Part shown: positions 799 to 45,953 of the stretch, piece by piece | Layout of the letters: each line of letters opens with the position of its first letter | Numbering within the stretch: position 1 is the first letter of the stretch | From: Adineta ricciae | Lineage: Eukaryota > Rotifera > Eurotatoria > Adinetida > Adinetidae | Reading direction: 5' to 3' | DNA length: 64,000 nucleotides | NCBI GenBank assembly: GCA_905250025.1 | Contig: CAJNOJ010000340.1 | Location: forward strand, 37,686-101,685 | The notes under the pieces: generated by a model | Told to the model about the DNA's origin: nothing | The model's input: only the letters and a program-made list of their open reading frames with translations | Databases searched by the model: none | Program-made: the position numbers and the translations under genes

Positions 799-959
799 TT
801 TCAGACTAAACTAGGAAAAAGATGGCACAAAAAAAATGAAAAAAAAATCAATGAGTACAAGCAATTTAAAAGAAAGCATATTGTCTGTTGAATTCGAATG
901 AAAAAGGAGAATAGAAGATGAATATTGCGAAGAGAATGTTCTATTCTCTACTCGAAAGT

Positions 960-2126
960 CTACGATGTGAAAGTAACTTTGCCATATTTTTCTCTGTATA
1001 ACTTCACAGCTTCTTCTCCTTGGCTTCCAGCTGCTTTTCTCAAAACTTCTTCGGTAACATAATTAGTCAGAGCATCAATTCCTGCACTAGAACGAATATC
1101 GAGGAATTCGCATCGACCTTTCGTTTCTTTAGCGATTTCTTCAAAATTACTCTTCGCATAGTCAGTCAAATAAAATGTATGGATTGGAATATCTTTGTCT
1201 TTTAATTTCTTTAATTCATCTTGATAAAAAGTCGGTTTAGAAAACTTCGTCGTTTTCCAATAATTTTCTCCATAACGCGCTCGTTTCGAAGAAACATCTC
1301 CTTGGGAATTTGCTGGTGCATCTCCAATTAAAATCACTTGTGAAATCGATTCTCTCGTCTCACTCTCGTTAACTGCATGCCATAGTCCAATCTCAATCGC
1401 TTCGGCTCCCCATCCTCCTTCTGGTCCAATCGTATTCATAAACGCTCTTAACCCACTACCTTTCGTTTCCCAAGGCGAGACTTCTAAAATCTTCTCGGCT
1501 TGCGAATTGTAGTTTCTGTAAACGACGAATTGCATCGAAAAAATATCGCTCGGTAATTTTTTCTCCTTTAAAATCTCTGAAGCGCGTTCGAACATCGTAC
1601 AAACGGTATCTTTTGTCGCGCTTAGAAGATTCGACATCGATCCTGTTGCGTCTATTAACAAAACTGTACGAGAAACATTCGCATAGATATTTGGTCCACG
1701 ATTTTGTTCAAGTAAAAAGTTCTGAACAATATTCATATCTCCATTGACAATCGCATCAAGAAAGTTTTTCGATTTATTATGATCTGCTTCACATTGATTA
1801 ATTCCGCATGTTTTTCCTGCGCAATTCGCTTCGTACAGTTTGGTTCGTTCATCATTTAGAGCTTCATAAAGAGTTGAACCTTTTATCTCATTTATTTTCT
1901 TATCCCAATCGGAACCGAGAACCCATTCTAAATCATTTTCTAACAAAATCATTCGATATGAACCTCGATCGCCTTGTCGCGCTCCTCTTCCCATAATCTG
2001 ATATTCTTCCGAAAGTTCTTTCGAAAAAAATGTTTGTAGAACGTGAATTCCTCCATTCGCTAAAACTTGTTGATTTCGACAAATAAAATCTGTTCCTCGT
2101 CCAAATGTTCGTGTCAACAATGTCAC
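960..2126 (-). pseudogene. SecA C-terminal helicase half plus VWA domain (3' part of giant locus)
   Basis: This open segment begins with the second RecA fold of a SecA-type ATPase: FGRGTD (compare AGRGTD of SecA), then GGIHVL and MGRGARQGDRGS (compare RGRSGRQGDPGS). At about residue 154 a von Willebrand A domain starts with VLLIDATGSMS, a MIDAS-type metal site (Asp159, Thr and Ser), and runs to about residue 370; the protein ends at TAG/TGA region 960. A cysteine cluster (C101, C107, C112, H116) lies between the two domains. There is no real ATG start: the codon at 2126 is GTG, and the segment is the continuation of the one upstream after a 1-base frameshift in a run of four C (plus strand 2131-2134). 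Removing one base gives TEGKVTLLTRTFGRGTD across the join. I infer it belongs to the giant gene and not to a separate gene. Confidence 0.75.
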
Positions 2127-2127
2127 T

Positions 2128-2769
2128 TTACCCCTCAGTAGCTGCGCGTTTTACAAAAATTTCTCTATCTTTCGGTGAAACTCCCTCAGTTATAATTTGC
2201 ACTAGATGTTTCATTGATGCTAAGCGATCACAATTATAAAATTCTAACAGACGTTCTTCGGATTCGAAAAAAACGAGAATAGAACGTTTGGCATTGACCA
2301 TTGTATCAACTTCTTCTTGAATTCGTGTAAAATATTCGGATTTCTCTACAGCTTCAACATCACTTTTTGGATAATAATTTCGATTACTTTTACCAAAAAC
2401 CGAGGGCATAAACGTATTTCTAGAAATTCCGTAAACTTCTGAAAGGATATTCTTCTCTGCATTAGCTAGCGTCCTTAAGGTTCCCGAAACTCCTGTGATA
2501 TAAATGAAATCTTTGGGCATGTGCGCATAGGAAAATGTTCCACAGCTAAGAATAATTCCGACATTTGCTTCTAAACTTTGTCCACTAATAAGACTGTTTT
2601 TGTTTTCATGAAAATATGCCCATACTGTGTCATAACCACGAACTACATTTTCAACATACGATTCTCCTTCGATATAAACAATTCGATCGTTCTTAACTGC
2701 GTATGTCGATGATTGATATGACTGTAAAGCACAAGTCATACTTTTTATCGCTTCGTCAACAAGAAAAAT
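2128..2769 (-). pseudogene. SecA-type ATPase, middle segment
   Basis: This is an open stretch in the same frame as the segment upstream, separated from it only by the TGA at 2770-2772; the sequence resumes at once with IFLVDEAIKSM. It contains the end of the first RecA fold and the linker into the second, including the stretch ITGVSGTLRTLANAEK (SecA has a comparable TGT motif) and SILVFFESEERLLEF, which resembles the start of the second helicase fold. It ends in TAA at 2128 because of the extra base in the C4 run just before. No independent start is visible. Taken with both neighbours, it shows an ordered SecA-type helicase whose reading frame is broken twice. Confidence 0.65.
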
Positions 2770-4041
2770 TCAGTTACTGAATCGCTGCGCACAATCTATG
2801 TAAGCTGATGTATTTTTTATACTCCGCAATGGCGGAAGATATCGATTATTCCATAGAGTACTTAGTAGATTTTTAATTGTCGGATCGCGTATCAACACAG
2901 ATGGTGTATACAATCCTCCGTAGAATTTCTCGCTAAGAAAAACATCAACTTCATCGATTAGCAAAACTTTCGGACGAGTTTGCACTGTTGTATTCGTTTG
3001 ATCAAGACTGTTTTTATTTTGTAAAATCATATCTCGTACTTTATCTCTCAGATTACATTGTTCATTCAAAAAGTTTTCGCACAGTCGATTAAATGTTCCA
3101 TATTCAATTCGTTCATCAATGCCTAATGCTTGAAATAGTGATGCAAAGTCATTTTTATATCTTTGACTTAGATATTCACTATAACATGAACATTTCACAT
3201 CCATTCCGAGCAAAGCAAAAACACACGCAACAATCGCTAAAATCACTGATTTTCCTTCCCCCGTTCCAACTTCAACTAGATTATTGAACAGATCGTCAGA
3301 AATATGTTTCCAACCTATTCGAAATCCGAAGACTTTTACGTGCTTTGTAAAACCGATTCCGAAAATACGAAAGAGCGAGATAATTTGCGCAACATGTGGC
3401 ATCAGAAGATAGCTTTGTGCCGAATCGATTCCTCTCATGTTATTATAATTCTGAGTGTTTTTCAAGGTCCAGACAGCGAAAATTTGTGCTAATATTTGAG
3501 GAATTTGATCTTGAATGGAGCGATCCCATTCTACTTTGTTATTTTTTTTAACTATTACTGGAACCGAAGATTTGATATCCGATATTAAAATATTCAAGTT
3601 TGGTTCTTTTTGAATTTTGGGATTAAATTCACTCAAATGTTCCGATATTAACCCTTCATAAACATTTCGAAAAAGTGCATAACGTTTTTCTAAAATCTCC
3701 TTAGTATCTTTATCTAGATCATCTCCGGTTAATTCTTCCAAGACATACTTCAGGTCGTCTTGTTTTTGCATTTTTTCTCTTCGTTTTCTCCAATCTTCAC
3801 CACTCAAAACTGAATGTTCAGATATTAACCGTGAACCTATTTCGTCTCTCTCTAAAATCATCGTTAATTGTTCGATTTTCGCCCGTCCTTGAGTCCTTTG
3901 AAAATGTTTCAAACATTCATCGATATTCGTATTAATTTTCGTGTCAAACATTGAGAAATTCTCTGCGAAAAATTTTATTTTGATCAAACATTCGGCAACT
4001 TTAGCGACATCTTCTTTAGCGTCACGAATTTCTTTAACTAA
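2770..4041 (-). pseudogene. SecA-type DEAD ATPase, N-terminal half
   Basis: About 420 residues in the same frame as the giant GTPase ORF upstream, separated from it only by the TAA at 4042-4044. The first 18 codons after that stop contain no Met; the first in-frame ATG comes about 30 codons in. The SecA hallmarks are VEVGTGEGKS (Walker A, compare KTGEGKT) and VLLIDEVDVFL (Walker B with the SecA-style DEVD). Between them lie YSEYLSQRYKNDF and YGTFNRLCENFL, which fit SecA motifs around the nucleotide fold. The first 230 residues are helical and unlike bacterial SecA, so this is a divergent eukaryotic relative. It ends in TGA at 2770. It could be a separate downstream gene, but in-frame spacing of only 54 bases argues for one broken gene. 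Confidence 0.7.
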
Positions 4042-7000
4042 TTAATCAACTTGTCTAAGTATTGATTTTTCAGCTAATTCTAAAGTTTGACGAATTTGAA
4101 GATCAGAGTATTGAAGATGCTTTTCAATCGAAAGAAGATGATTGTAATAAAGTCGAAATTGATCTGCATCGGCTGAAGTTGGACTCGTTTGATTCGAAGA
4201 AGAAACAAGTTTTTCTTTGATTTTTTCGACTTTCATCTTCAGATCTTTTTCAATTTGTTCAAAAACGAATATCGATGCGAATTTATTCGAAAACTCTTTC
4301 TCAATTAATTGAAAAACTTTTAATGTTGCTGAAAGTTTACTGAAAAATTGTTCGCGATCTGCTTCAAATCGTTCGGTTCTATCACTAATCAAATCTTCTT
4401 GAAAAACTAACGCGGATAAACGGATCTCTTCTTGAAAACTCTTCATTAACTTATTATGTTCAGGTATTTGTTTCATTTGTATAAGAAACGATTTCATCAT
4501 TGAATGTTCACATGCACAACAATGAAATTTTTTGAGAACTTGATTTATTGAAGAAGCCGTGTGCAATAACTCCTTAATGACGCTGATATTCATTGCTTTC
4601 AAAGCAGTGTTAAAATTGTCGACTAACACTTGCCAATCTGTTGATAATTTATTCAAACTGAGAGACGTGTTTGTGAATGTTTTTTCCGGAATGAAATCGT
4701 TGATTTGCGGAGAATAAGAATGAACGAAATCCAAACATAAGATTAGATTTTGTAGAGCTTTATCAACACTTTCAAGTTTATTAAGTGAAAACACGTCCGA
4801 AAGTGCTTTGGAATAAAGAAGTATTTTTCCACTAAGCAAATCTGAAACTAACTTCAAATATCTTTCACTAACTGGAATATTCGGTGCATAAAGATGAAAT
4901 TTCAAAATGATTGGGATATTCTCAAGTCCTAATTGAATCTCTTCCTTTTCAAATGATTGTTGAACTAAATTCCAATAATGGTCTAATTTATTTGAAACTC
5001 CTGAATGTAAAATTGTTAACAATTCGTCTTGCTTTCTACTTTCATATATCTCTGCAAATCTATTTAATCTTCGAATCGTGTCATCATTAATTTTCTCACT
5101 CTTCAGAAAATTTTCTAATTCACGTTTATATGTTCGATTTTCTTCGATAACTTTATCTTTTAGCTGAGTAACTTCTGTTTTAAAATATGTTTGTAAATCA
5201 TCTGGAAGAAAGTCTAGTGCATCAAACAGTGGTTTAATCAATTCGACACGTTTTTCAATGGGTTCCTTATCCACATTGTCAATCATTGATTGGAAATTTT
5301 GTTTAATTTGAGCGATAATTCGTCGTATAATCTTGTCATATTTTGTTTTAAGACGTTCAGGAGCCTTTTGTAATTTCAAAACGAGATCTTTCGGAGAATG
5401 AATTGGATATTGTTGAATGTCTTTGAGATAATCATTTTGTTCCAAGATAAGTTGATCCAAATTATCTAATTTCCCTTTGATTTCCTTTAGTTTTGGATCA
5501 ATTGATTCCAAATTCAAAAGTTGATCAAATTCACGTCGAATCAGATCAAATTTTTCGATACTTAATTCCACTTCGAAGACATCATTCGAATCCAAGAGCT
5601 TTTCGATATTTTCGATCGATTGTGACAAGTTTTTTGATAAACAGTCAGTTAATTTCTTTTCGAATTCGTTCAAATCTGTTTTCGTTTCTTCACCATCAAT
5701 CAATGTTAACAATTTTGATCTTCGAACAGTACGCAATTTTTCAAAATTCGCAATTATTTTTTCAATTTGACACTGAGTCATCGTTACAAAGTCATCACTA
5801 ACATTGAGTTTGTTGGCAATTTTCAGTGTGTTTTTCATTAAATCATCCAAAGAACGTTGGAGATCCCGTTTAATCGCACGCATATTTCTTGGATTGGCTG
5901 TTTTCTCATCAAAATCATCCATGACATTGTCAATAGCCGCATAATTTTCGTCTTTGATAAATTGCAAAACGTTCTCATAAGTTTGCTTGGATTGTTTCGA
6001 CGTTTCAATTTGATTAGTTCGATACAAAGCACCGAAACCTTGTGTTAAAAACGTTCCACTACAAAAGTTATCTACTCGACTTAAATGTTGGACAACGATC
6101 AACTCCTTATGTAAATCTTCATAACTTCCCGACGTTTTATAATTTTCAATTCGAGTGGAACTTATTTGATATTGTTCTCCAAATTTTCTTCTCCAAGTTT
6201 CGACTTTTTTATTTCCTTCAATCGATTCAAACACATTTTTATATTCTCTTAATGCAACTAAATCTTCTAAGCGTGTTTCTAAATTTTCCGAATCACATGA
6301 ATTATTTTCTAAAATGGATTTGAAGATTCTTTCAATATCCTTCTGAAGACAAATTCCGTATTCAGTGATATATTTTAGTAAAATTCGATGAGTTTCAGAC
6401 GCCATTTGTTTAAAACAGATATTTCTGATCTTTTCACAGTTTCGTGTATAAACTAAGGCGATATCAGCTGTTGCCGCATTGAAATGATCAAAGTGAAATG
6501 TTTGTTGATCACTTTGATGTTGACTGACAATTTTTTTCTTTTCATCGATGGTTTGAGTCAAAATTTGAATATTTGCGACGTTTCTTCTTTGAAGATATTT
6601 CGATTGTTCTTCTGTGAGAGTATTGTGTGTAATTATCAATGATTCATATTGAGTTTTAATTGAAAGAAGAGGTTCTAGAAGATTTTTATATTTGTTTTCT
6701 GAGTCTTGGATAGTATCTGCTTGAATTGCAAGTCGATTTTCAAAATTGCTTTTCTCTTCTTCTTTGCATTTTGTCAATTTGTCTTCGATATTCGCTTTTC
6801 TTTGATTTTGATGTTGGATTTCTTTGTCTCGGTTATTTTCGAGTTCTTTGATTTCCTTTTCCAATTTATTGAAATCGCTGAAATTATTTTGACGTAAAAG
6901 AACATTAGCTGGATGTAAATCTACCCAGCCTTGTTCGATTTGTTCAAGTCGAATTAATTCCTGTTTGGCTTCATAAATTCTTTTATCTTGTAATTGAAAG

Positions 7001-10000
7001 ATCTTTTGCATTTGATCAAAGTTCGCTTGAACACTTTCAAGGAAACTTTTTATCATTGAATCTTTTTTATGCTTCAATTCGGGTAGAATTCGATCGAAAA
7101 TACTGAGAGAATCAAGTTTATCAAAGATTTCCTGCGCAAAGGGAATATTTTCTGGATGTTTCATCGTTAAATCTAATTTCATCAAACGATCTTCTAAATC
7201 GTGAAAATATTCAGTTAGTTCATCAGTGATTCGTTTTCTTGCTCGATCATATGACCCTGGACAGGTTCGATTCATCCATTTGGCATTATTCATTCGTGAT
7301 AATAAACGAGCGATTTTCACATAGTTTGGCGTTCCTTTTTGTGATTCGAGTGAGTTCAATAGATCTTCAACTTCTTGTTGAATTTGATTCATTTGTGAAC
7401 GAACAAAATTAACTGTTTGATGATAAATTCCCGCTGTTTTCGAATCAATTTCTGGAATCGTTCGAATTGCATCCAAATCACTAATTAAAGTCTCAGTATC
7501 TTCAAGCGCGCGATCACCATGATTTTTAAACAATTGATCTATTCGATTATTGATTTCGTTAAAATATTCCACAATTTTCTCAATCAACGAATTATAAATT
7601 CCATTAAGATTTTCGCTCTTCTTAAACATTTCATTATAAGTTGAAAGACGATCCTGTAGCGCAGCATTTCTTTTCACTGATCCTAATGTCACAACTGAAT
7701 TTTTCACAAATTCAAGCTCATTTTCACTTAATCTCGGTTTAGCTAAAACTAACTGACATTTCTCAAGAATATTCTTCAAAGATTCGACAAGCAGCTGAAT
7801 CGTCTGACGATATTTTTTTTCTACTAAACCATTTAAATGTTTGTTCAAAGTCGGAAGACATTTTGTGATTTGTAAAATCACATTAGCGATTTGATCAAAT
7901 TGATTTGCTCTGATGAGTTCGTCGGTTGTATTCGTGAGTTTTTGAAATTCTTGTTGAAAATATTCACAAATTTGTTTGTACAATGGCTGAATTTGTTCGA
8001 AGGAATTTTTCAAAAGAAAAACATTGTTAAAGAAAATTCCAATGAGATGACTTGATAATTGTTCTTCGAGAAGAACTTTCTTTCGTTCTTGAATTTCATT
8101 AATCATGTTTTGTACGAATAATTCTGATGAAAATATTTCTTCGTCGAAATGTTTTTGTAGTTTTTGACATTTTTGAATAAATTCAATCGAATATTTATAT
8201 TCTTGAATATCTTCATCCTTCATCCCGTCTTGACTTACCAATGAACGATGAAAAGTTTTCGTTCTTTCACTGCAAAAATTTGTTAAGGTTTCTTTAACTG
8301 ATCGAATCGCATCTTCATACGAATCTCTAATTGTATTTAAATCAATCAAATCTTTCAAACTTTTTAATTTATCTAAACAATATAAAGCAAGATCGATATC
8401 TCGATGTTTTAATGCACATTTAATATTCGAATTATCTTGTTGAACTTGATCTGAAATACAAGATTGGGTTTCGGTACTGATAGAAAATCGAAAAACTTCA
8501 TCAAGATGTTTTATTCCACGTAACTGTCGTAATTTTTTAATCAAAGATTTAGGATCTCCCGAAAGAGGATCGAGAATTTCCGCATCAACTCGTGTTTTAT
8601 TAATCATATCCTTTAAAACTGCTACGAATGTGCTATCTGATTGTAACAACGGATCTTTATCAACTTTTGATATTTTGATATCAGATAACAAAGCGTTAAT
8701 GTCCACTGACGATGGATATTTTGTGAATGCATAACAAATAGCGCCTAATCTTTCTTGAATATCTTGAATCATATTAATCAAATGATGCGCGAGTTTCTGA
8801 ATTCCTTGTCCTCGATCTCCTAGACTTTTGTAACTTGAAAGAGCAAGAATTTTCACAGTTTTACAGTCTTTTAAAGCTTCAATAACTCCAACTCCATTGG
8901 CAATATCAACTTCTGGACCCGCTGTATCACCAAAACCTGGTGCATCACATAGAATGATTTCTCCGGATTCATGTGAACCGTAAATATCTCGTAATGGAAT
9001 GGTTACCGGTGCGATGTATCGTGTTTCTGATCTACTCAACGCGCTATTCGTGACATTTATTAAGTCATGGTTCTTGATCGGCCCATCGATCGTAATATGT
9101 TCTAAGAATCTTCCTGGTTCAACTTCAACTTTCGTCTTTTTCATCTTCGAACCACTGAGAAACTGTATTGTCGTGGATTTTCCAGTTCCAGTTTCTCCGA
9201 CCAATAATATTATATCTTTACCAGCAATTAATTTCGCGGCATCTTTAGCTTTGTCTACAAGTCGCTCAATTTCCCGAACATTTAACGGTCGAATTTGTGA
9301 TAAAATTTCAGTTAAACAGCGCAATATTAATGGATTATCATGACTTCGTGTATAACGTTGTAAATCTTGTAAATTCTCCTGAATTTTCTTGGAAAAGAGT
9401 TCTTGTTTCTCAATCTGCTTCTGTAATTGTTTGAACCTTTCATTGATGAATTTTCGATCGAGTTTAACATGAGCACCTTCAAGATTTTTTTCTTGGAAAT
9501 ATTCCAAAAATTCCACAATAGTTTTTTCTGCGCACGGATACATATCGCGACTATTGAATCTCTGTTTTTCAACACTTTGTTCAGTCGTCGGCGCAGGAAT
9601 ATTTTCAACGTCGGGAGCAACTAGACTCGGTTTTGGCATATCATCTGCCGGTTTTTTCGACGAATTTGATTTCAAATTCGTGATTTCGTCAGCCAATTGA
9701 TTTAAATCTTCAAGATTTTTTAAATATACTTTTTCTATTTCTACTTCATCAATTCGATCTTCTTCTTCAAATTCACTAATTCGTTGCTTCGAACGTTGAA
9801 TTTTTTCTATTAAAACTGAAACATTCGGTACTTTCAATTGCGCTAAGCCTTTCGCTAATTTCTCTTCTAATTTGCGCAATTTGGATTCATCTGTTTCTTC
9901 CTCTTTCGACTTATTCAAATCATCAGCTAATTTCTGAAGTTTCTTTAATTCAGTTAAACGATTATTTTCATTTTCTGCTTCTTCTAAGTGACCTTCTTCC

Positions 10001-11361
10001 TGATAATCTTTGATGCGTTGTTCGCATCGATGAATTCTTTCAGGTAAATCTCCGACATTCGAAATTTTATATTTTGACAGCCCGTCGTTTAATTTCTTTT
10101 GTAAATCATCATCTCCTTCTGCCTCGTTACTATTCGATTTCAGCTGAGAAATTTCTTCGAAAAGCTTCTGTAATGCCTTACATTTATTTAGATATTGTTT
10201 TTCTCTTTCTACATCACCAATTCTGTCTTCTTCTTCGAATTCTTTGATTCGTTCCTCAGATTTCGCAATTTTCTCTGATAATTTCGCTGGATCAGCGATC
10301 TTCAAATTCGCTAAATCAGTCGCGAATTGTTGTTCTAACCGATTCAATTTCGATTGCTGATTTTGTCCACTCATCGTTTTTAGATTTTCAATATCTTCCG
10401 CGAGTTTCTGTAATCTCTTGAGCTCATTTAAACGCGTCGCTTCGTTTTTTGCTTCATCTGCTCTCTCTTCCTCTTGATATTCTTTAATTCGTGCTTCTGA
10501 TCGTGCTATTCGTTCTGGCAAAACTTTCACATCAGTTATTTTCAATCTACTAAGGCCATCCGCTAATTGATGTTCGAAATCAGATTCTGAATGATTTGCT
10601 TTCATACGTTCGATTTTCTCAGCAATTTCTGCTAATATTTCGCATTCTTTTAAGTAATTTATTTCCTTTCCTGCATCATCCATTCTTTCTGTTTCGCGAT
10701 ATTCTTCAATTCGAGTTTTCATCTTCAGAATTCTGTCTGACAATATGTTTACATCAGATATTTTGAATTTCGTTAATCCACTTTTTAGTCTTTTCTCAAG
10801 TTCAGATAAATTCTTTTGATTACCTTCACACGATGTTGTCGAAGCTTCTTCATTCGTAGAAGATAAACTGAAGGTACTTGCTTGAGACGAATGTGATTTT
10901 TGCACTGCATTCAATAGATTGGTTACAGTTAACATTCCGCTTCGGGCTTGGTCTTCGTGCTTTGACATCTTCTTCGAACGTAAAACATTTTTTGGAAAGA
11001 TTTTCATGAATTTATTCTGTAATTCATCTGGAACAGTATCACTACCGACAAGTGGATCAATGAATTTCGATTGTTCTATTTGCCCCGCCGAATTCCACTC
11101 GAGCAAAATCCCAGCCCAATGATCAATATTGATTAGATAAGGAATAAGAATGATACGTTGACCACTGTGACATTTATGAGCCTCTAGAAATCTTTCTTCA
11201 ATTTGGCCATCGGCAGTCTCCAAAGCAGTTTTTAGGACGTGTACAGGAACCGGTAAATTATCGGGAGATTGTCGACGTATTTCATCCAGTTGTGTGGATA
11301 TTTCATCGTATATATCAGGCTTTTCATGTGATTGGCTTGATCCGAGTAGAAAGGGTTCCAT
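4042..11361 (-). CDS. Giant repeat-GTPase protein with degenerate C48-like peptidase domain
   Basis: A 2439-residue open frame from the first ATG (11361); an in-frame TGA lies about 30 bases upstream. Residues here are numbered from the TTG at 11379. Residues 20-160 resemble a Ulp1/C48-type cysteine peptidase with His87-Trp88, Asp108 and Gln144, but Ser147 stands where the family has the catalytic Cys. Residues 194-571 are five helical repeats. Residues 722-900 form a P-loop GTPase: GETGTGKST (728-736, G1), DAPGFGDT (812-819, G3) and FTKYP as a possible G4. The remaining 1500 residues are almost wholly predicted helix, rich in Glu/Lys/Gln, as in dynamin-like or very large GTPases. No introns are needed. 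The frame stops at TAA 4042 and continues in phase into the SecA part. Function is unknown; a membrane- or scaffold-remodelling or immune-type GTPase role is inference. A close paralogue copy lies at 20937-25842 and a diverged one at 13360-18423. Confidence 0.85.
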   Translation of the reverse strand: MEPFLLGSSQSHEKPDIYDEISTQLDEIRRQSPDNLPVPVHVLKTALETADGQIEERFLEAHKCHSGQRIILIPYLINIDHWAGILLEWNSAGQIEQSKFIDPLVGSDTVPDELQNKFMKIFPKNVLRSKKMSKHEDQARSGMLTVTNLLNAVQKSHSSQASTFSLSSTNEEASTTSCEGNQKNLSELEKRLKSGLTKFKISDVNILSDRILKMKTRIEEYRETERMDDAGKEINYLKECEILAEIAEKIERMKANHSESDFEHQLADGLSRLKITDVKVLPERIARSEARIKEYQEEERADEAKNEATRLNELKRLQKLAEDIENLKTMSGQNQQSKLNRLEQQFATDLANLKIADPAKLSEKIAKSEERIKEFEEEDRIGDVEREKQYLNKCKALQKLFEEISQLKSNSNEAEGDDDLQKKLNDGLSKYKISNVGDLPERIHRCEQRIKDYQEEGHLEEAENENNRLTELKKLQKLADDLNKSKEEETDESKLRKLEEKLAKGLAQLKVPNVSVLIEKIQRSKQRISEFEEEDRIDEVEIEKVYLKNLEDLNQLADEITNLKSNSSKKPADDMPKPSLVAPDVENIPAPTTEQSVEKQRFNSRDMYPCAEKTIVEFLEYFQEKNLEGAHVKLDRKFINERFKQLQKQIEKQELFSKKIQENLQDLQRYTRSHDNPLILRCLTEILSQIRPLNVREIERLVDKAKDAAKLIAGKDIILLVGETGTGKSTTIQFLSGSKMKKTKVEVEPGRFLEHITIDGPIKNHDLINVTNSALSRSETRYIAPVTIPLRDIYGSHESGEIILCDAPGFGDTAGPEVDIANGVGVIEALKDCKTVKILALSSYKSLGDRGQGIQKLAHHLINMIQDIQERLGAICYAFTKYPSSVDINALLSDIKISKVDKDPLLQSDSTFVAVLKDMINKTRVDAEILDPLSGDPKSLIKKLRQLRGIKHLDEVFRFSISTETQSCISDQVQQDNSNIKCALKHRDIDLALYCLDKLKSLKDLIDLNTIRDSYEDAIRSVKETLTNFCSERTKTFHRSLVSQDGMKDEDIQEYKYSIEFIQKCQKLQKHFDEEIFSSELFVQNMINEIQERKKVLLEEQLSSHLIGIFFNNVFLLKNSFEQIQPLYKQICEYFQQEFQKLTNTTDELIRANQFDQIANVILQITKCLPTLNKHLNGLVEKKYRQTIQLLVESLKNILEKCQLVLAKPRLSENELEFVKNSVVTLGSVKRNAALQDRLSTYNEMFKKSENLNGIYNSLIEKIVEYFNEINNRIDQLFKNHGDRALEDTETLISDLDAIRTIPEIDSKTAGIYHQTVNFVRSQMNQIQQEVEDLLNSLESQKGTPNYVKIARLLSRMNNAKWMNRTCPGSYDRARKRITDELTEYFHDLEDRLMKLDLTMKHPENIPFAQEIFDKLDSLSIFDRILPELKHKKDSMIKSFLESVQANFDQMQKIFQLQDKRIYEAKQELIRLEQIEQGWVDLHPANVLLRQNNFSDFNKLEKEIKELENNRDKEIQHQNQRKANIEDKLTKCKEEEKSNFENRLAIQADTIQDSENKYKNLLEPLLSIKTQYESLIITHNTLTEEQSKYLQRRNVANIQILTQTIDEKKKIVSQHQSDQQTFHFDHFNAATADIALVYTRNCEKIRNICFKQMASETHRILLKYITEYGICLQKDIERIFKSILENNSCDSENLETRLEDLVALREYKNVFESIEGNKKVETWRRKFGEQYQISSTRIENYKTSGSYEDLHKELIVVQHLSRVDNFCSGTFLTQGFGALYRTNQIETSKQSKQTYENVLQFIKDENYAAIDNVMDDFDEKTANPRNMRAIKRDLQRSLDDLMKNTLKIANKLNVSDDFVTMTQCQIEKIIANFEKLRTVRRSKLLTLIDGEETKTDLNEFEKKLTDCLSKNLSQSIENIEKLLDSNDVFEVELSIEKFDLIRREFDQLLNLESIDPKLKEIKGKLDNLDQLILEQNDYLKDIQQYPIHSPKDLVLKLQKAPERLKTKYDKIIRRIIAQIKQNFQSMIDNVDKEPIEKRVELIKPLFDALDFLPDDLQTYFKTEVTQLKDKVIEENRTYKRELENFLKSEKINDDTIRRLNRFAEIYESRKQDELLTILHSGVSNKLDHYWNLVQQSFEKEEIQLGLENIPIILKFHLYAPNIPVSERYLKLVSDLLSGKILLYSKALSDVFSLNKLESVDKALQNLILCLDFVHSYSPQINDFIPEKTFTNTSLSLNKLSTDWQVLVDNFNTALKAMNISVIKELLHTASSINQVLKKFHCCACEHSMMKSFLIQMKQIPEHNKLMKSFQEEIRLSALVFQEDLISDRTERFEADREQFFSKLSATLKVFQLIEKEFSNKFASIFVFEQIEKDLKMKVEKIKEKLVSSSNQTSPTSADADQFRLYYNHLLSIEKHLQYSDLQIRQTLELAEKSILRQVD
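9667..10800 (-). repeat. Five tandem helical repeats of about 75-80 residues within the giant GTPase
   Basis: Each unit follows the plan LE-x-[KR/Q]-L...GL..[FLY]KI.[DN]V..L.[DE][RK]I..[SC]E.RI.E[YF]-EE-DR.....E...L..L..L..[IL]..LK. Units start near residues 194, 268, 348, 427 and 505, a spacing of 74-80. They look like two-helix coiled-coil units with a conserved K[IV].[DN] turn. The paralogue at 13360 has two such units and the copy at 20937-25842 shows at least three before its end is cut. The unit count therefore varies between family members, as expected if units are gained and lost by unequal exchange. Confidence 0.85.
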
Positions 11362-11379
11362 CAGTTGATTGTGTCGCAA

Positions 11380-13359
11380 GAATATTTGTGATCAGCAACA
11401 CAGTTGCGAGTGAAAATTGCTGCAGAAGTTCGCTAAAATGAAAACAAAATATTGAAAAGATCTATGCTGGAAGCGTACTAATAAGGGTGACGGTAAGATG
11501 TTGAATTTTATGAACGTAGTGCGCGGACTTGAAAACAAATTGATGATGGTAGCTGTTTAGCACTTACCAAGATACCAAACAATTATGCCAGTAAAAGATT
11601 TCAGAAGTATAGAAGTGTATAATTGCAACTGTATAGATTATCTAAAACAATGTAAATGAAATTCTACATGGAAAGGTTCAAACGATAGCTTAATCACATA
11701 TTTCAAGTACAAGAATGCTATACAACATGATTATAATAATGGAGAGAAACCCCATTTATGAATCCATCGAAAGTTTTGCTTTTAGAAACGCATCCAAATG
11801 AAAACCCTGGCGTATGACTAAAGTATTGTTCTCTATCATCGTTTTGAAACTAGCACCACTTAAAAGTTAAGTAGCCAGAGAAAATCCACAGGATACCTAG
11901 CCTCTCCCCATTTACCAACCATTTCAACGTTAGTTACAAAAAAAAATCAATCTTCTCATATCATAATTTCCAGCTCAATTATCATCTGTCGATATCAACG
12001 AGTATAATAACAATACTATCCTATAGAAATTCACTGGATCCTAAAAATATCTTTAGAATTCATTACTATCACCAGATAAAATTTAACAATCTAGAGAACT
12101 AAAAAGCCTGAAACATCAAAAATAAAACTTCCTTTCATGGTGGCAACGATGCGCAAACTATCACCAATATAAAAATAATGTTTTACATTTACGTCAACAC
12201 TACCGCTCAATAGTCTTAACACGACTTAAAACGACGTCTTCCATCAAGATATTTTTCTGTTCGCGGAGTCGACTCTGATCGATACGAAATCAAATTCGAA
12301 ATGAAAAGGAGCTGTTTCAAAGGACGATAATTCATTATAGGAGAGACATTCTCTCTTCAATCACATTTGGTGACAGATGTCTATACACATATAACAGAAA
12401 ATTTCATCAATTTTTTTGTCAAATAATTTTTCCATTCGCAAAATTTGCCCAAAACGATGCAGAATCGAATTCTGAATGAAATGCAGCTGTGTCAAGGACG
12501 GCAATTCATTCTAGAGAAAGGCATTATCTCCTTAATCACATTTGGTGACAGATGCGTGTACACGTATGAAAAAATGCGATCGTATTTTTCGTCAAACGAA
12601 TTCCCGTCCTCCGAAACAGCTTCATTCCATCTAGAATGTGATTTTGCATCGTTTTGGGTAGATTCCGTGGAAGAAAAATGTTTTCCATGTCGATTTTAGA
12701 TTTGCATTTTTCAGCAGAAGCATGGATCATAGGTGTTTTGTCTTCCTGGTGAATTAAGGTTGGAACTGCATTTCATTTCGCGTTTGGATTATGTAGTTTT
12801 GTTGTTGATTCCTGATATAGGATGGGGGAAGAAATTTTTGTTAGCATAAGACAAAGATATTATGAGTTTTTCATACGGTTGTTGGTACATGAGGAATGCG
12901 GAGTGTAGGATTAAATAATAGTATGAGACATCTTGTTTTATTTATTGAAATGATTTTGGTTACTGAGGAAGTCCTAAGCCAATTTATGGTCGTTTCTTCA
13001 TTTTCAATTTCTGATTGGTTAATTTTACGCTTTACATTGATTCCCAACATCATCAATCTTAAACCAAAATGGTCACCTCAACGAGCTCCTTCTACTGATA
13101 TAATACTCATAGAGATTTACTGCACAGATAAAAATGTTCTCATTCGACACCTTGCCCGTCCCTATTCTTTATATTAATTAAAAAATGGTTCTATACTTAT
13201 TTGATATGATTTAGGGTACAATTCAACTTTTATTTAGGCTCTAAAATCCCAAAATACAGATATTAAAGACGCGACAACTATTTGATTCGAGCGGTTTATC
13301 ATCATCTATTACTAATTTAATTAATATCAGATCAATCTGCGATATCAATTATTATAAAG
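11380..13359. other. Divergent intergenic region between two GTPase paralogues
   Basis: About 2 kb between the start of the minus-strand giant gene and the plus-strand paralogue, so it must hold both promoters if the genes share the space. It is AT-rich with no convincing exon. The short open frames at 12445-12730 on both strands are produced by the repeat described separately. No clear TATA box or conserved site can be supported by eye. Confidence 0.5.
12281..12662. repeat. Diverged direct and inverted repeat, foldback-like
   Basis: A unit at 12281-12400 is repeated in the same direction at about 12457-12575. Shared marks are the GAGCTGTTTCAAAGGACG / CAGCTGTGTCAAGGACGG stretch and the identical ATCACATTTGGTGACAGATG. 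A third, partial copy is inverted at about 12595-12660: reversed, it reads ACCCAAAACGATGCAAAATC, matching GCCCAAAACGATGCAGAATC at 12446. Because of this, both strands translate to similar peptides beginning PKTMQN. The arms of about 65 bases enclose about 85 bases. It may be a degenerate foldback or MITE-like element; no flanking target duplication was identified. Confidence 0.65.
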
Positions 13360-16300
13360 ATGGAATCAAATAGGATCGCAGTTGTACATGAAAAAGAGAA
13401 TGCGTTTACGAGACAACATGAAGATATTTCAACGCGAGTTGCAGTATTTAATGAAAGTGAGAAATCAGTCGACTTGCTTGGATTGGAAAATCGCTTAAGA
13501 GTTGGCTTAAATTCATGTAAGATCAGAGATATATCTCACTTATCGGAGAGAATAAAGAGAACGGAAATTCGGATACAGCAGTATATCGACGAGACTCGAA
13601 ATGATGAAGCTGAAAAAGAGATCGAATACCTCAATGAATTAAGGCAGTTAGAAATGCTACGCGATCAAATTGTTTTCCAATCAATTGCATATCTTTCGAA
13701 AAATATCGATGCATTAGACACGAAAGAATTAGAAACTCGATTAAAATATGGTTTGGAAAGATGTAAAATTCAAGATATAAATCAAATAGAAGAAAGAATT
13801 CAGCGGACAGAGGAACGTATCGAATCGTATCAACATGAAGATCGACTCGATGCAATCGAACAAGAAATGAAATATTTACATAATTTACAATTCACTCAAA
13901 TCATTCTCAAAGAAATCTTTCGTCGACAATCCGTTGAAAACAATGACGAAGACAAATCCGAACGAATAGAATTAAACGACTTAATTGACGAATTAAATGA
14001 AATACCTGAATGTGCAGAGAGAACTCTTATGGAATTATTAAATGAGAAGACAAATCAAACAACATCGAATTCAATTCATTCGAAACTAAATCAATTAGAA
14101 AAGCAACTTCAATTTGAGAATTTATTTTCTGAGCAAATCGAAAGGAAATTCCAAGAGATCAATCGAACCATCGATAATCAAGATTGTTCCTTTTCTCTTT
14201 ACAATTTGAACCAACTTTTCAAACTTATTCGACCATTAAATCTTCGTCAAATTCACCGATATGTCAAACGATTCGAACAAACCGCTGCTTCAGTTCATAG
14301 CAAAGAGGTCATTCTCTTAGTCGGTGCGACAGGATGTGGAAAATCCACGACTGCTCAATTTCTGACCGGTGCAAAAATGAAACGAACACAAGTCGAAATT
14401 TGTCCAGGAAAATTTCTTGAACATATCACAATCGACGGACCAATAAGAAATCCCGGATTAATCGATGTGAAAAGTAGTCCACTGAGTAAATCTGAAACAC
14501 GATTTGTAATTCCAATTTCAATTCCTTTGAAAGATATTTTTGGTGTTCATGAAACAAGTGAAATCATTGTTTGCGACGCACCTGGTTTTAGTGACACACA
14601 AAGTGGGGAGATTGATATTGCCAATTGTCTCGGAACCATCAAAGTTCTTAAACGATGTAAATCTGTGAAAATCTTCGCTTTATCGAGTTATCGAAGCTTA
14701 GGAGATCGAGGTCAAGGTATTCAACAATTAATCGATTTTTTATCCAATATGATTCAAGGAATTGATCATCGTCTCAATTCAATCTTATTCGGATTTACGA
14801 AATATCCATTAGATATTGATATTCATGCAATGTTAACTGAAATGATGAAAAATTCAAATCAAAGATTTGTCTCCGTTTTGAATTATATGACTCAGAATGA
14901 TCCGATCAGAATTGACCCCCTCAATGGAAATCTCAAAGATATTATTGAAAATTTACAAAAACTTCGAGGTATTTCTTATCCGGATGAAGTTCTGCAAATT
15001 TCTCTCGCTCAGCAAACTCGAGTGGTCATAAAAAATCAAATCTCTCGATACAAATCGCACATTGGTTATGCATTAAGAACAGAAAATCTCTCACTTTTAA
15101 CGTTTTATTTCAATCGATTTCAAAGTTTATCGAAATTAATTGGAGAAATGTTCATCGAAGAAGATTTGTTCAAGTTAATCAAAGAAAACCATCAAGACAA
15201 TTCCAAGAGAATCATCGAGAAGTTGAAACAGTTTTTGAAAATGGATCACAAATTAACCGATAAAGATATCGAACAACTAGAGAAAACATCGATATTTCTT
15301 CGACAAATGACAAAGCATTTTCAATTCAATGATTTATTCTCCGAAGGTCTCCATTTACCGTTGAAAGATTACGACTTATCTCATCCAAGAGTCGGAGTTT
15401 TTCTCGACAACCTTTCTTTCCTTCAAAGGTGTTTTCCGGAATTGGAAAGTGTTTACCTGAAGTATTGTCGAGATCTCTCCGAAGTATTTCAAGTGAAATT
15501 TGGTCAATCGCTTGATGAAACGATTCCCAATCATCAATTGAGTGAAATTCTCGATAAAATTTCTCAATTAATTCCAAGTTTAAATGAACATTTGGACAAA
15601 CGAGTTGAGAAGAAATATTCGGAAATGGTGGAAACGGTTCTTCAACATTTTCAAAAGATTTCCGATCGATCGAAATCAGTTTTATTTAAAATAAATCTAA
15701 ATGAAAATGATCTGAAATCAATTGAAAATGATTTATCGGCATTAAAATCTGCAAAAGAGACAAAATTATTCGAAAAACATTTGAACATAAGTTTCAATGA
15801 CATTTTCAGCGAATTTATGGGAAATTTGCTCAAATTTACCGAAGAAATTCCTTTGAAAGTCAAAGAACACTTAGATAAACACGGTTTCAATTTGATTCAG
15901 CACTTAATTGAACAATTTCGATTAATCCGAACATTGTCTGACATTGAAGAACGGACAAATCGAAGTTTCTACGGAATGATCGATTCAATTTGTGTTTTCC
16001 TTCGAAAACTACGAGGAGAAATCCAAGAACTTATTCACGAGCTCGATGTTTCTCCCAAATCCAATCAAATCCGCAAACTCACCAATTTATTATCACAACT
16101 GAAACAATTCCAATGGATTGATGAATTCTCTCCGAAACTTGTCGAGAAAATTCTCGAAGACATTCAAAAGGAATTTTTCGAACAGATGGAAACCTTGGAA
16201 TGGAAACTAAAAAAGCTAAATCTCGATTTTCACCACCCGGACAACGTTCGTTTAGCCAATGAAATTCTTCAAAAGCTCTATTCGTTGAAAGATCTTCATC

Positions 16301-18423
16301 GTTTTCTTCCTCAGCTTAAAATCTGTGAAGAACGAATCAACAACGAATTGTACGAATCAATCAAAGCAATTTTCGACTCAATTCCACAGAAATTCAATTT
16401 ACAAGAGAGAAAAGTTGACAATCTAAGAGCTGAATTGAACCATTTGAAAGAGTTGCAACAACAATATGAAAGTTTCTGTCCGTCGATTGTTTATTTGAAA
16501 GAATTGGGCTATTCGAACATTGATCAAGTGAAAAATGAAATTGAACGAAGTGAAAAAGAATTTGAAAAACAAAATGAAGAATATCTTTGTGAGAAAAATC
16601 AATTAGACAAGCAAATTAATGAACTTGAATTAATTATTCAATCGTATGGAAAATCAATTCTTTTCAACGTCTCGAAAAAGATCTTCGGAAAAATTTTTAA
16701 TAAGCTAACAAATCCATTGCAACAAAACGAAATTTTAAAACAAAATGGATGTTCGGATATTAATCAAGTTAAAGACAAAATGGAAAAGTGTCAAAACGAT
16801 TTAGAGAAAATTCATCAAAGTCATCTGACAAATGAAAATAATCTCCAGAGAAATTTAACAAATCTTCAGTCCATTCAAAGTCATTATTCAAAACTAATTG
16901 AAGAACATCAGGAAGATATTAACAAAGGAAATCTCTTTCTCATTGAAAATTCCTTTGAGAATTATGAAGATTTGTTAAAGAAAATCGAAGAAATTACCAA
17001 CGATCTTAATGATTTTATTCGATTGAAACAATATTTTTATTTTCACGATGAATTTGATGCATCGGAGATGAATTTCATCTTCATTTATCTTAATCAATTC
17101 GACGATTTCATCGATCCATCTATTCGAAAATTAGCGAATGAGATGAATGAAGGTTTGAAAGCTTATCTTCGTGAATATGTGAATTTTGTCGAAAAAGAAA
17201 TCGAACGACATTTTAATTATTTAATCAAATCAAGAACAAATGAATCTTTGAAAGAAAACTTTCAAAAATATTTATTCGGTTTACTTTCATTGAAGAAATT
17301 TGAAATTCTTTTCAAATATTCGAATGGAGAAAAGAAATTGAAATCTTTTCAAAAGAAATTCGTGAATTTTCATCATTCGATTATCAATGAAATTGAAGAA
17401 GATAAAATCAATGAGAATTATGAAGATTTCAAAGACAAATTATTTCATCTTCAATCGTTCATTTGTTTAGATGAATTTTTCATCGAATTGAACGAAAATG
17501 ATCGATTTGAAAAATCTTTTCGAAAATACCAAGAAGATTTTCGTCAAATCTCCAAAGAATTCTATCAATTAGTCTTAGATTCAATTTCCAAACACGATTT
17601 TCCTTTGATTAACTCGAAACTTTCATACATGATCGAAGTCTTCGCCAATAAGAGATTTGTTTCGCATCTGAAAACGAACTTGGAAACCAATCTCGAACTT
17701 TTGATCAAGAATACGAAACAATTTGCCAATTCGCTTCACGAAAATCTTCAATATAAACAAGAAAATGAAAATCTTTTTCGGAAACTCGTAGCAAATCTTG
17801 ATCAACTGCGAATTGTTCGTCGACAAACGAACATTTTGAATTTTATTGAAAAACCTCTGAAAATTTCATTGGAAAATTTATCCAATGAAATTGAAGAAAT
17901 TTTAAGAAAAAAACTTGTAAATCTTCTTCAATCAATTGAGAATTATTTCAAACAAAATGATTTTGTTTTCATCGAAAAAACAATCGAATATGTGAATTAT
18001 TTCTTAAATCAATTTCAAGATTATTTTTCATTTAAATCAACCGAACATCAAATCAATGAAATGAAGACAAGAATTTCTCAATTACCCAAAGAAATTCTTG
18101 AACAATATGATTTTGCCGATTTGAATAAATATCTGAACGATTCACCAAAATATCTTTGTCAACAATTGGAAGTTGTTTCATCGAATGGTTATACAAAATA
18201 TTCTGATGTTTATCGAAAGATTTTGGAGAAAATTCGAACGAATTTCTTATCGGAAATTAACAATGTCAAAGACAACCGAGTTTTGAATCGATCAAGTAAA
18301 ATGCAATTGATTAGAGATGCTTATCATTCTTTGCCAGACGATCTGCAAACTTTTTTTCAATCTGATATTGAAGAAATTAATCAACTGATTAGAAAAGAAG
18401 TTCGCATATCCGATTTCGATTAG
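13360..18423 (+). CDS. Large coiled-coil repeat GTPase, intact short paralogue
   Basis: A single-exon protein of 1687 residues starting at ATG 13360. It has two helical repeats (about residues 42-106 and 123-188) of the kind seen five times in the minus-strand giant gene. A P-loop GTPase follows, with GATGCGKST at 322-330 and DAPGFSDT at 406-413, and the intervening [13 protein letters not shown] block is shared with the paralogue. The rest is long helix rich in Lys, Glu, Gln and Asn. It lacks the peptidase-like start and the SecA-VWA tail. Its end matches only the point about four fifths along the 2445-residue paralogue, and what follows the TAG does not resemble the missing part. The frame is clean, so this copy is probably functional. 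It stands head to head with the giant gene. The biochemical role is unknown. Confidence 0.88.
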   Translation: MESNRIAVVHEKENAFTRQHEDISTRVAVFNESEKSVDLLGLENRLRVGLNSCKIRDISHLSERIKRTEIRIQQYIDETRNDEAEKEIEYLNELRQLEMLRDQIVFQSIAYLSKNIDALDTKELETRLKYGLERCKIQDINQIEERIQRTEERIESYQHEDRLDAIEQEMKYLHNLQFTQIILKEIFRRQSVENNDEDKSERIELNDLIDELNEIPECAERTLMELLNEKTNQTTSNSIHSKLNQLEKQLQFENLFSEQIERKFQEINRTIDNQDCSFSLYNLNQLFKLIRPLNLRQIHRYVKRFEQTAASVHSKEVILLVGATGCGKSTTAQFLTGAKMKRTQVEICPGKFLEHITIDGPIRNPGLIDVKSSPLSKSETRFVIPISIPLKDIFGVHETSEIIVCDAPGFSDTQSGEIDIANCLGTIKVLKRCKSVKIFALSSYRSLGDRGQGIQQLIDFLSNMIQGIDHRLNSILFGFTKYPLDIDIHAMLTEMMKNSNQRFVSVLNYMTQNDPIRIDPLNGNLKDIIENLQKLRGISYPDEVLQISLAQQTRVVIKNQISRYKSHIGYALRTENLSLLTFYFNRFQSLSKLIGEMFIEEDLFKLIKENHQDNSKRIIEKLKQFLKMDHKLTDKDIEQLEKTSIFLRQMTKHFQFNDLFSEGLHLPLKDYDLSHPRVGVFLDNLSFLQRCFPELESVYLKYCRDLSEVFQVKFGQSLDETIPNHQLSEILDKISQLIPSLNEHLDKRVEKKYSEMVETVLQHFQKISDRSKSVLFKINLNENDLKSIENDLSALKSAKETKLFEKHLNISFNDIFSEFMGNLLKFTEEIPLKVKEHLDKHGFNLIQHLIEQFRLIRTLSDIEERTNRSFYGMIDSICVFLRKLRGEIQELIHELDVSPKSNQIRKLTNLLSQLKQFQWIDEFSPKLVEKILEDIQKEFFEQMETLEWKLKKLNLDFHHPDNVRLANEILQKLYSLKDLHRFLPQLKICEERINNELYESIKAIFDSIPQKFNLQERKVDNLRAELNHLKELQQQYESFCPSIVYLKELGYSNIDQVKNEIERSEKEFEKQNEEYLCEKNQLDKQINELELIIQSYGKSILFNVSKKIFGKIFNKLTNPLQQNEILKQNGCSDINQVKDKMEKCQNDLEKIHQSHLTNENNLQRNLTNLQSIQSHYSKLIEEHQEDINKGNLFLIENSFENYEDLLKKIEEITNDLNDFIRLKQYFYFHDEFDASEMNFIFIYLNQFDDFIDPSIRKLANEMNEGLKAYLREYVNFVEKEIERHFNYLIKSRTNESLKENFQKYLFGLLSLKKFEILFKYSNGEKKLKSFQKKFVNFHHSIINEIEEDKINENYEDFKDKLFHLQSFICLDEFFIELNENDRFEKSFRKYQEDFRQISKEFYQLVLDSISKHDFPLINSKLSYMIEVFANKRFVSHLKTNLETNLELLIKNTKQFANSLHENLQYKQENENLFRKLVANLDQLRIVRRQTNILNFIEKPLKISLENLSNEIEEILRKKLVNLLQSIENYFKQNDFVFIEKTIEYVNYFLNQFQDYFSFKSTEHQINEMKTRISQLPKEILEQYDFADLNKYLNDSPKYLCQQLEVVSSNGYTKYSDVYRKILEKIRTNFLSEINNVKDNRVLNRSSKMQLIRDAYHSLPDDLQTFFQSDIEEINQLIRKEVRISDFD

Positions 18424-45376: not shown

Positions 45377-45953
45377 GATTATCTTCTTTATAAAAAGATT
45401 AAAACTTTACTGTGATGAGAACCAATCTACTGATCACATGAATATAGAATAGAATGTATGTGGAAGATTGAGACCTCTCTCATGATTTGTCACTTTTCGA
45501 ACGCCAATCCGAATTGCATCAACATCCTTCATGTATATAAATATATCAGTATCTCTGATCAACGTGCCTGTATCTTTTGAAATTATCGTACTACGAACAT
45601 ACTTTTTAGATCGATTGAATCAAATTCTTTCGTTGCATGTATTTATCCCTAAAAAATGTCTCCAATAGGTGGCGCTAATACATCGTAGTCGTATATCGCA
45701 TGAAGGATACGATGGTGACTCTGAAGACATATTGCAAGAGTAATCTAATTCTGAACTTGAGCATTTGAATTCGATCTGAATTGGTAGTAGAAAGTATATA
45801 TTTGAAAATCTTTGACTGATTGAGAAATTGAACAACATAAAATAGAACGCATGATTAAAGAATTAATAGACAAAATGAGAAAACGGCAAGTGATGAAAAA
45901 TGGAAAGAAAAGAGACATTTAAACGTCTGCTCGTTTTTTCTAGATGATGTTTT
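45377..45953. other. Short intergenic spacer
   Basis: Separates FZR1 from the C18orf32-like gene, both on the minus strand. It should hold the FZR1 promoter. No coding signal is supported. Confidence 0.45.

Follow-up and report, generated by a model that had tools for sequence, protein, structure and literature searches.

A broken copy of a giant GTPase-SecA-VWA gene family in the rotifer Adineta ricciae, with probable horizontal transfer between animal and bacteria

Results

The window analysed here is a stretch of 64,000 nucleotides of the Adineta ricciae genome, and its minus strand holds from 963 to 11391 a broken copy of a giant gene joining a GTPase, a SecA-type motor and a VWA domain, with the first ATG at 11361. 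The encoded chain is ordered, and a pair of in-frame stops together with a frameshift splits it into four open frames, all on the minus strand and all counted with their stop: 4042-11391 (2449 aa), 2770-4041 (423 aa), 2128-2769 (213 aa) and 960-2150 (396 aa). The first three pieces lie in a common frame with a single stop between neighbours (4042..4044 and 2770..2772), while the fourth is reached by one frame change near 2130-2150, where pieces 3 and 4 overlap (2131..2150).

Along this chain, again all on the minus strand, a conserved N-terminal domain of unknown fold (10897..11361) is followed by five repeats of 72 residues each (9655..10800, residues 198-579), placed and counted as in the original prediction and found in the window copy, C281 and C137. 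Next come a P-loop GTPase domain (8701..9315, residues 693-897) and a long middle region that extends over about 1550 residues and is presumed to be helical (4045..8700). Piece 2 (2773..4041) holds the first lobe of the SecA-type motor with its preceding stretch, and piece 3 (2131..2769) holds the middle of the motor and the beginning of the second lobe. The remainder of the second lobe and a linker lie at 1680..2132 (end approximate), and a VWA domain closes the chain at 963..1679 (start approximate). Motifs which we take to be of P-loop type (GETGTGKST and CDAPGFGD) and of SecA type (TGEGKS and DEVDVF in piece 2, GVSGTL in piece 3, GRGTDF and QIMGRGAR in the remainder of the second lobe) stand in the expected positions, as does the DATGSM of the VWA domain.

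In profile searches SecA_DEAD, MMR_HSR1 and VWA were found, and AIG1, Peptidase_C48 and SecA_PP_bind were not reported. The SecA-type motor is upheld by a SecA_DEAD match in piece 2 above the Pfam cut-off (38.7 bits versus 24.6), together with the SecA-type motifs spread across the window pieces. The P-loop GTPase holds as well, with MMR_HSR1 below the cut-off of 21.9 when the whole first piece is scanned (20.3 bits) and above it for the G domain scanned alone (23.8 bits). In piece 4, P-loop_SecA (21.6 bits) and VWA_2 (14.6 bits) both fall below their cut-offs of 27; the VWA assignment is carried by the motif in the window and by VWA_4 matches in two paralogues (C281, 29.5 bits, and likewise C137; cut-off 27). 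The first window piece gave no match in PDB at E<=1.

That these pieces form a single chain agrees with three intact paralogues (C281, 3213 aa; C373, 3112 aa; C137, 3381 aa), which are colinear with the window chain across each of its breaks. As these paralogues cross the same parts in single uninterrupted frames, the window chain is more than a chance alignment of open frames. The intact genes are intron-free and run for 9-10 kb in one frame. Introns were rejected as the source of the breaks in the window, since the paralogue protein alignment crosses each break with nothing missing. A near copy of the window gene, C364, is 83-89% identical to it and is ended by a contig boundary; like the intact paralogues it reads through both stops. 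The window copy is best read as recently broken or mis-assembled.

SecA_DEAD also exceeds its cut-off of 24.6 in the intact paralogues (C281, 30.3 bits; C373, 29.8 bits; C137, 42.3 bits), and MMR_HSR1 falls below its own when they are scanned as long pieces. The Walker A, DEVD, GRGxD and Q-GR-R motifs are present in the window pieces taken together and in all four paralogues of this group, which we call group A (C281, C137, C373 and C364). The MIDAS motif DATGSM is found in the window, C281, C137 and C364; in C373 it is lost and no VWA match was obtained. The original prediction had placed the GTPase and SecA parts in one gene, and three intact paralogues hold both in one frame. A second member in the window (13321..18420, plus strand, a 1700-aa ORF) comprises repeats, GTPase and middle region, and tblastn at E<=1e-4 detected neither a SecA nor a VWA part in it, so that the GTPase and SecA parts are usually, not always, linked. 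A third member (20937..25842, minus strand) is a fragment about 92% identical to 5634-10353 that is bounded and interrupted by single Ns.

The genes flanking the locus are of animal type: nine further ORFs of the window were scanned and six gave hits at E<=0.001, among them 7tm_1, CDC20-Fz WD40, Cactin_mid, LIDHydrolase and MUN. With such neighbours, the one gene design joining a GTPase, a SecA-type ATPase and a VWA domain lies on an animal chromosome.

Two of the labels originally given to the chain did not survive. The N-terminal domain had been taken for a dead C48 peptidase; it has no Pfam match at E<=1, a four-row profile of it found nothing in PDB better than E 1.2, and none of the 14 Peptidase_C48 places found in the genome, in a search that lay outside the window, is on a contig of an intact paralogue. 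The histidine of the HW pair in the window, the supposed catalytic residue, aligns with a histidine in C373, a tyrosine in C281 and an asparagine in C137. The GTPase had been called dynamin-like. Dynamin_N matches at E<=0.01 in two of seven family G domains (best E 2.6e-4), the window domain not among them, whereas MMR_HSR1 matches in all seven at the same threshold; AIG1/GIMAP is absent from the 18 families found for these domains at E<=0.01. Like MMR_HSR1-type P-loop GTPases, the family G domains carry G1 GxTGxGKST and G3 (C)DxPGF-like motifs. A GTPase profile searched against PDB matched P-loop proteins of many kinds, including midasin (4e-12), Der (1.6e-5), septin-9 (7.5e-4) and IRGB10 (0.0035), aligned over the P-loop alone. 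A known anti-phage defence protein was also considered and rejected: three of the four window pieces and L040 matched no PADLOC family at E<=0.01, and L039 matched mad8 (18.6 bits) in the surroundings of the P-loop only.

The fusion had been thought peculiar to an animal, a view that a bacterial genome overturns. In the Gammaproteobacteria MAG OFTM54 (G003), a single 3464-aa ORF encodes a GTPase, a SecA-like motor and a VWA domain in the same order as C281; the fusion is therefore not an animal novelty. The two proteins align over the SecA part (37% over 374 aa, E 2e-59), the middle and first lobe (24% over 602 aa, E 6e-24), the GTPase (30% over 199 aa, E 2e-15) and the VWA domain (25% over 279 aa, E 2e-10), with E-values scaled to 60e9 letters. 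Taken alone, the GTPase scores 94.7 bits and the VWA domain 77.8 bits, against maxima of 23.1 and 22.7 in 200 shuffles each.

Other bacterial relatives include the Chlamydiae MAG OFTM140 (G001; G3 motif and SecA part, cut by the contig end), the Gammaproteobacteria MAG 7_bin.57 (G002; 1821 aa with GTPase and SecA, MMR_HSR1 27.1 bits versus a cut-off of 21.9) and the genomes G075, G100, G331, G402 and G050. Several are represented in part only. DATGSM was found in three of the eight, G402 lacks four of the five motor patterns, G075 lacks one of the five, and the G050 ORF has just 599 aa. In the Chlamydiae order and the groups of the gammaproteobacterial MAGs, carriers are sparse (4/232, 1/36 and 3/369 genomes, seeds included). 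A viral carrier was rejected, as none of 50 pattern matches in viral contigs was a relative. A plasmid search gave 31 matching records, every one below 60% identity; the best 20 of the 31 comprised ten secA/secA2, one SecA-like, two DEAD/DEAH helicase and seven with no annotation under the match. The records examined further were from Euplotes symbionts, Megaera polyxenophila (a giant SecA-like protein of 5225 aa) and Bandiella woodruffii (2966 aa).

Two trees were built, a quick one in which win2, win3 and win4 entered as one joined row, and a careful one of 23 rows chosen from 39, with the window row left out. The quick tree excludes Megaera2p and C505b, which have no full core, and the Megaera 5225-aa protein, which yielded no row from the core search, is absent from both. 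The careful tree unites the four animal paralogues in a clade (support 100/100), and these together with all eight bacterial relatives and the animal row C451a make up a further 100/100 group. This group is separate from canonical SecA (rows L045, L048 and L064, so labelled by length and sequence) and from the animal's other SecA-like genes, and the quick tree concurs. Within the animal and bacterial group the midpoint-rooted careful tree lacks resolution. Constraining the eight bacterial rows to one clade was not rejected (AU p 0.139), with that clade in 0 of 200 bootstrap trees, and neither was constraining all five animal rows (p 0.053). In the quick tree only, the animal clade adjoins one bacterial subgroup (SH-aLRT 94).

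To judge from codon comparisons, the family is under purifying selection in the animal. Between the window copy and C364, dN/dS is 0.28, 0.20 and 0.16 for pieces 2, 3 and 4; between C281 and C137 it is 0.22, at a dS of 1.3 that is near saturation.

Discussion

The window locus is probably a broken copy of a giant GTPase-SecA-VWA family that moved horizontally between animal and bacteria and was then amplified and selected in the animal. Its intact relatives in the genome encode an N-terminal domain, a GTPase, a long middle region, a SecA-type motor and a VWA domain, about 3100-3400 residues in an intron-free frame. The shared order of GTPase, SecA-like motor and VWA domain in the bacterial giant suggests that the family was exchanged by horizontal transfer; homology and order are seen in the sequences, and the transfer itself is likely. 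The direction was more likely from bacterium to animal, perhaps via a protist, and would have been followed by amplification in the animal and retention by selection.

The reverse direction, in which bacteria associated with eukaryotes acquired an old giant gene of a protist or animal, appears rather unlikely. The scattered and sparse bacterial carriers favor it but are compatible with either direction, and it gains from the unsettled branch order of the careful tree and from the other giant SecA-like proteins on plasmids of the ciliate symbionts Megaera and Bandiella. However, the animal genes are free of introns over their whole length, one bacterial subgroup neighbours the animal clade in the quick tree, and SecA is generally known as a protein of bacteria and plastids, where it serves as the secretion ATPase. 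Bacterial-type domains and the lack of introns could also suggest that the window is bacterial contamination, which is scarcely credible given that close relatives of the gene lie on four other contigs and that, barring a false join, the linked animal genes on the same contig contradict it. Whether the window gene is broken is less certain, and there is an appreciable if minority chance that it is functional and that its breaks are assembly errors. The low dN/dS of pieces 2-4 and the absence of indels in 1468 aligned codons versus C364 (break points excluded) argue for this, as do the single Ns at 20936, 23566 and 25843, which mark imperfect joins nearby. Against it stand two separate stops and a frame change inside about 1.9 kb, and a small excess of amino-acid changes on the window branch at sites identical in three outgroups (12 versus 6 on the C364 branch).

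Like the preprotein translocase, the family motor is two-lobed with TGEGK, DEVD, GRGxD and QxxGRxxR, and its profile matches solved SecA structures (best E 1.3e-20), but it is one part of a protein that exceeds 3000 residues and also contains a GTPase and a VWA domain, and in both trees it stands apart from the rows labelled canonical SecA. That the protein is a true translocase acting at a membrane channel is very unlikely, even though SecA_DEAD is above its cut-off and the profile alignment spans both lobes. The NCBIfam SecA/SecA2 models give partial matches whose best score of 33.8 bits falls far short of the cut-off of 862, the scaffold, wing and C-terminal regions have no Pfam match in the window or intact paralogues, and among the PDB matches listed no stretch extends beyond SecA residue 657, after which the VWA domain follows. 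The preprotein cross-linking region lies within the SecA-aligned PDB stretch; SecA_PP_bind was not reported for group A.

Two other systems invite comparison. The Megaera and Bandiella giants are likewise very large proteins with a SecA-type motor, but Pfam at E<=0.05 finds neither a GTPase nor a VWA domain in them, and in the trees the Bandiella protein falls among the other SecA-like genes of the animal (group B) rather than in the GTPase-SecA-VWA family. In the Amoebophilus endosymbiont, SecA-like and GIMAP-type GTPase domains are among the effector domains proposed to contact the eukaryotic host (Zhang et al. 2012, PMC3482391). Both kinds of domain occur there among those listed, but as alternatives, C-terminal and behind APD1/APD2, whereas the present family is found in an animal and has GTPase, SecA-like motor and VWA domain in a single chain.

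A mechanism can be proposed tentatively. The GTPase and VWA domains would pick and grip a target, and the SecA-type motor would spend ATP on pulling or unfolding a polypeptide. As no SecA scaffold or wing region was detected, the protein would act as a cytosolic remodelling machine rather than as a secretion translocase, and a role in host defence or membrane remodelling may be envisaged. It is conceivable, if doubtful, that the animal lineage adopted a bacterial machine entire, a protein-pulling motor of SecA type with a GTPase gate and a VWA grip, then multiplied it and has retained it by selection as a remodeller or weapon in the cytosol, which may be aimed at intracellular microbes like those that carry such a machine themselves.

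Protein databases contain SecA-family entries of rotifers and other invertebrates that were named automatically, and the mere presence of such genes may therefore not be news. Our literature searches found no paper pairing SecA with bdelloid (as whole words), none on a giant protein with SecA, von Willebrand and GTPase parts and none on horizontal transfer of a SecA domain to animals, and among the matches listed in wider searches no title concerned a GTPase-SecA-VWA fusion. The interest of the family lies in a SecA motor that shares a chain of over 3000 residues with a GTPase and a VWA domain, occurs in several copies under selection in an animal, and is found in the same arrangement in a bacterium. 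If confirmed, it would mean that SecA works outside secretion and that giant genes with many domains, some 10 kb long, can move whole between bacteria and animals, and it would provide a concrete candidate system for conflict between animals and microbes that is open to expression and assay.

A fragmented gene and its intact paralogues

The window gene lies on the minus strand at 963-11391 and consists of four open pieces of 2449, 423, 213, and 396 residues. Pieces 1 to 3 share one frame with single stops between them at 4042-4044 and 2770-2772, and piece 4 joins after one frame change near 2130-2150. The original prediction read these as an ordered chain, a reading borne out by the animal's 130 Mb genome. 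Piece 2 as query turned up six relatives, four close and two weaker; piece 1 found the same four along with fragments on contigs C373, C508, C389, and C1014 (best 19 of 30 candidates). None of the matches listed, with any query, lies at the window's own locus. The frames of the paralogues on C281 (3213 aa), C373 (3112 aa), and C137 (3381 aa) are uninterrupted; the C364 paralogue, 83-89% identical to the window pieces, stops at the contig end after 1471 aa. As all four window pieces align in order to C281 and three paralogues are uninterrupted, the chain is a single gene design, with breaks that are specific to the window copy.

GTPase, SecA-type, and MIDAS motifs are all present in the window gene. 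The proposed SecA-type ATPase was recovered in piece 2 (Pfam SecA_DEAD, 38.7 bits versus a cut-off of 24.6), though NCBIfam SecA models gave partial matches far under their cut-offs. The P-loop GTPase, sub-threshold when the whole of piece 1 was scanned with Pfam, passes when the G domain is scanned alone (MMR_HSR1, 23.8 bits; cut-off 21.9). In piece 4 the Pfam P-loop_SecA and VWA_2 matches are both below cut-off; the predicted VWA is upheld by its MIDAS motif and by VWA_4 in C281 and C137 (29.5 versus 27). The C373 paralogue has lost the MIDAS, and no Pfam VWA match was found in it. The five predicted repeats are 72-residue units at residues 198-579; C281 and C137 have two each, and none were found in C373. 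Two earlier assignments fell away, as the putative dead peptidase does not classify as Peptidase C48 and the GTPase does not classify as dynamin. Tests for membership of the AIG1 family were likewise negative for the GTPase, as were those of the SecA preprotein translocases for the window gene family.

State of the window copy

Break points left out, the window and C364 copies have zero indels across 1468 aligned codons, and dN/dS between them is 0.28, 0.20, and 0.16 for pieces 2, 3, and 4, respectively. At the codon level, purifying selection on these pieces is evident. At sites identical in three outgroups, 12 amino-acid changes map to the window branch and 6 to the C364 branch. Given the lack of indels, the low dN/dS, and the branch changes, either the copy was inactivated recently or its breaks are errors of assembly. 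The 444 codons directly before pieces 2 to 4 (4045-5376, compared with C364 locus L011) have a dN/dS of 0.78 and a dS of 0.09 versus 0.32-0.36 elsewhere; this drop in dS may reflect gene conversion.

Joins near the window gene are imperfect, as shown by single Ns at 20936, 23566, and 25843. They bound and split a third, fragmentary copy on the minus strand at 20937-25842, which is about 92% identical to 5634-10353 and is likely an assembly patch. About 190 bases are repeated across its inner join. A second family member, on the plus strand at 13321-18420, carries two repeats, the GTPase, and the middle region; no SecA or VWA part was found downstream, and it appears to be a GTPase-only paralogue.

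The window is animal chromosome. Six of the ten window ORFs scanned have Pfam matches at E≤0.001, all at 37-64 kb (7tm_1, Macro/PARP, CDC20-Fz WD40, Cactin_mid, LIDHydrolase, and MUN). The four without such a match are three at 37-64 kb and the 13321-18420 member.

Relatives in bacteria

The SecA-VWA part of the animal genes, as a five-row alignment, was used to scan bacterial and archaeal genomes, with two short peptide patterns as seeds. The scan gave at least three loci out of 162 pattern matches, a lower bound because it depends on those patterns. In the Gammaproteobacteria MAG OFTM54, a 3464-aa ORF encodes a GTPase, a long middle, a SecA-like motor, and a DATGSM-bearing VWA. It is colinear with C281 over the GTPase (2e-15), middle and first lobe (6e-24), SecA part (2e-59), and VWA (2e-10), with E-values scaled to 60e9 letters. 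The GTPase and VWA score 94.7 and 77.8 bits, and 200 shuffles each reach at most 23.1 and 22.7. The order of parts is the same against C137, and every part except the VWA is matched in C373. The ORFs downstream on the OFTM54 contig appear to be ordinary bacterial genes. Another Gammaproteobacteria MAG, 7_bin.57, has the GTPase and SecA part within 1821 aa with MMR_HSR1 above cut-off, and the contig-cut locus of the Chlamydiae MAG OFTM140 shows a G3 motif and the motor. By sequence, the fusion is common to the animal and bacteria.

In total, eight bacterial relatives were found, and zero among the viral contigs scanned. DATGSM is present in three of the eight (OFTM54 and genomes G331 and G075). 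Four of five motor patterns are absent from genome G402 and one from G075, these two and G331 having been compared without their N-terminal halves; the G050 ORF is only 599 aa. Carriers at E≤1e-40 (eight-row alignment, seed included in each count, best candidates per genome scored) number at least 4 of 232 genomes in the order or phylum of the Chlamydiae MAG, at least 1 of 36 in the order of 7_bin.57, and at least 3 of 369 sampled from the OFTM54 class; OFTM54 and G331 are each the sole genome of their order. At 1e-20 the Chlamydiae figure is at least 15 of 232, the extra ones having their matches mostly in the motor's second half.

Origin of the gene family

Eukaryotic rows in both our trees come from this one animal. 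In a midpoint-rooted tree of 23 rows, all four animal paralogues fall into a single clade (100/100), which joins the eight bacterial relatives and the animal sequence C451a in a 100/100 group, separate from canonical SecA and from the animal's other SecA-like giants, with no supported branching order inside. In a quick 39-row tree, the window row pairs with C364, and the animal clade lies beside OFTM54, G331, G075, and G402 (SH-aLRT 94). A single clade of the eight bacteria was seen in 0 of 200 bootstrap trees and is not rejected (AU p 0.139), nor is one of all five animal rows (AU p 0.053). Transfer from bacterium to animal is the likelier direction, as the animal's genes, 9-10 kb long, lack introns.

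The genome also encodes a second, distinct set of SecA_DEAD giants, on C11, C31, C97, C165, C212, C275, C323, and C451, as well as on C505, which is outside the trees. The largest is 5303 aa (C451b). This set groups with the Euplotes symbiont Bandiella and a 3756-aa ORF of 7_bin.57, apart from the window gene, and is likely a further transfer. At its C-terminus, the 5303-aa ORF (C451 51171-67079; L018, L019) matches Agrobacterium VirD5 in Pfam (52.1 bits versus a cut-off of 25); SecA_DEAD and weak TPR matches are also present in this ORF. Also on C451, at 45190-50010 (L017), a 1607-aa ORF combines ankyrin repeats with a SecA-like motor and belongs to the well-supported group of the window gene. 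For the giant at C31 150757-160479 (L022, L023), there are matches to TPR and, slightly below cut-off (22.2 versus 23.3), an OTU-like one at the C-terminus. On a plasmid of the ciliate symbiont Megaera (L072; CP113870.1), a gene at 347-16024 encodes a 5225-aa protein that includes a SecA motor. Its RickCE-like peptidase match is sub-threshold, and the next gene is annotated SecA-like.

Effector domains of the endosymbiont Amoebophilus include GIMAP-type GTPase, SecA-like, and Ulp1-like domains (Zhang et al. 2012, PMC3482391), and SecA-like ATPase domains are mentioned for giant secreted toxins of actinobacteria (PMC8195603). In their accounts of such domains, neither paper describes a single chain with GTPase, SecA, and VWA, or an animal carrier of one. 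A literature search pairing SecA with bdelloid found no paper.

Possible role of the protein

The alignments show two nucleotide-binding engines and a metal-site domain kept in order in animal and bacterial proteins. The two lobes of this type in SecA move polypeptides, P-loop GTPases are switches, and VWA domains hold ligands via the MIDAS metal. That the protein is a true Sec translocase is unlikely, since among the matches listed to solved SecA none extends past residue 657, and the VWA comes after the SecA part. More plausibly, the protein would be a cytosolic machine for pulling on proteins or unfolding them, in which the GTPase would provide control and the VWA would provide targeting.
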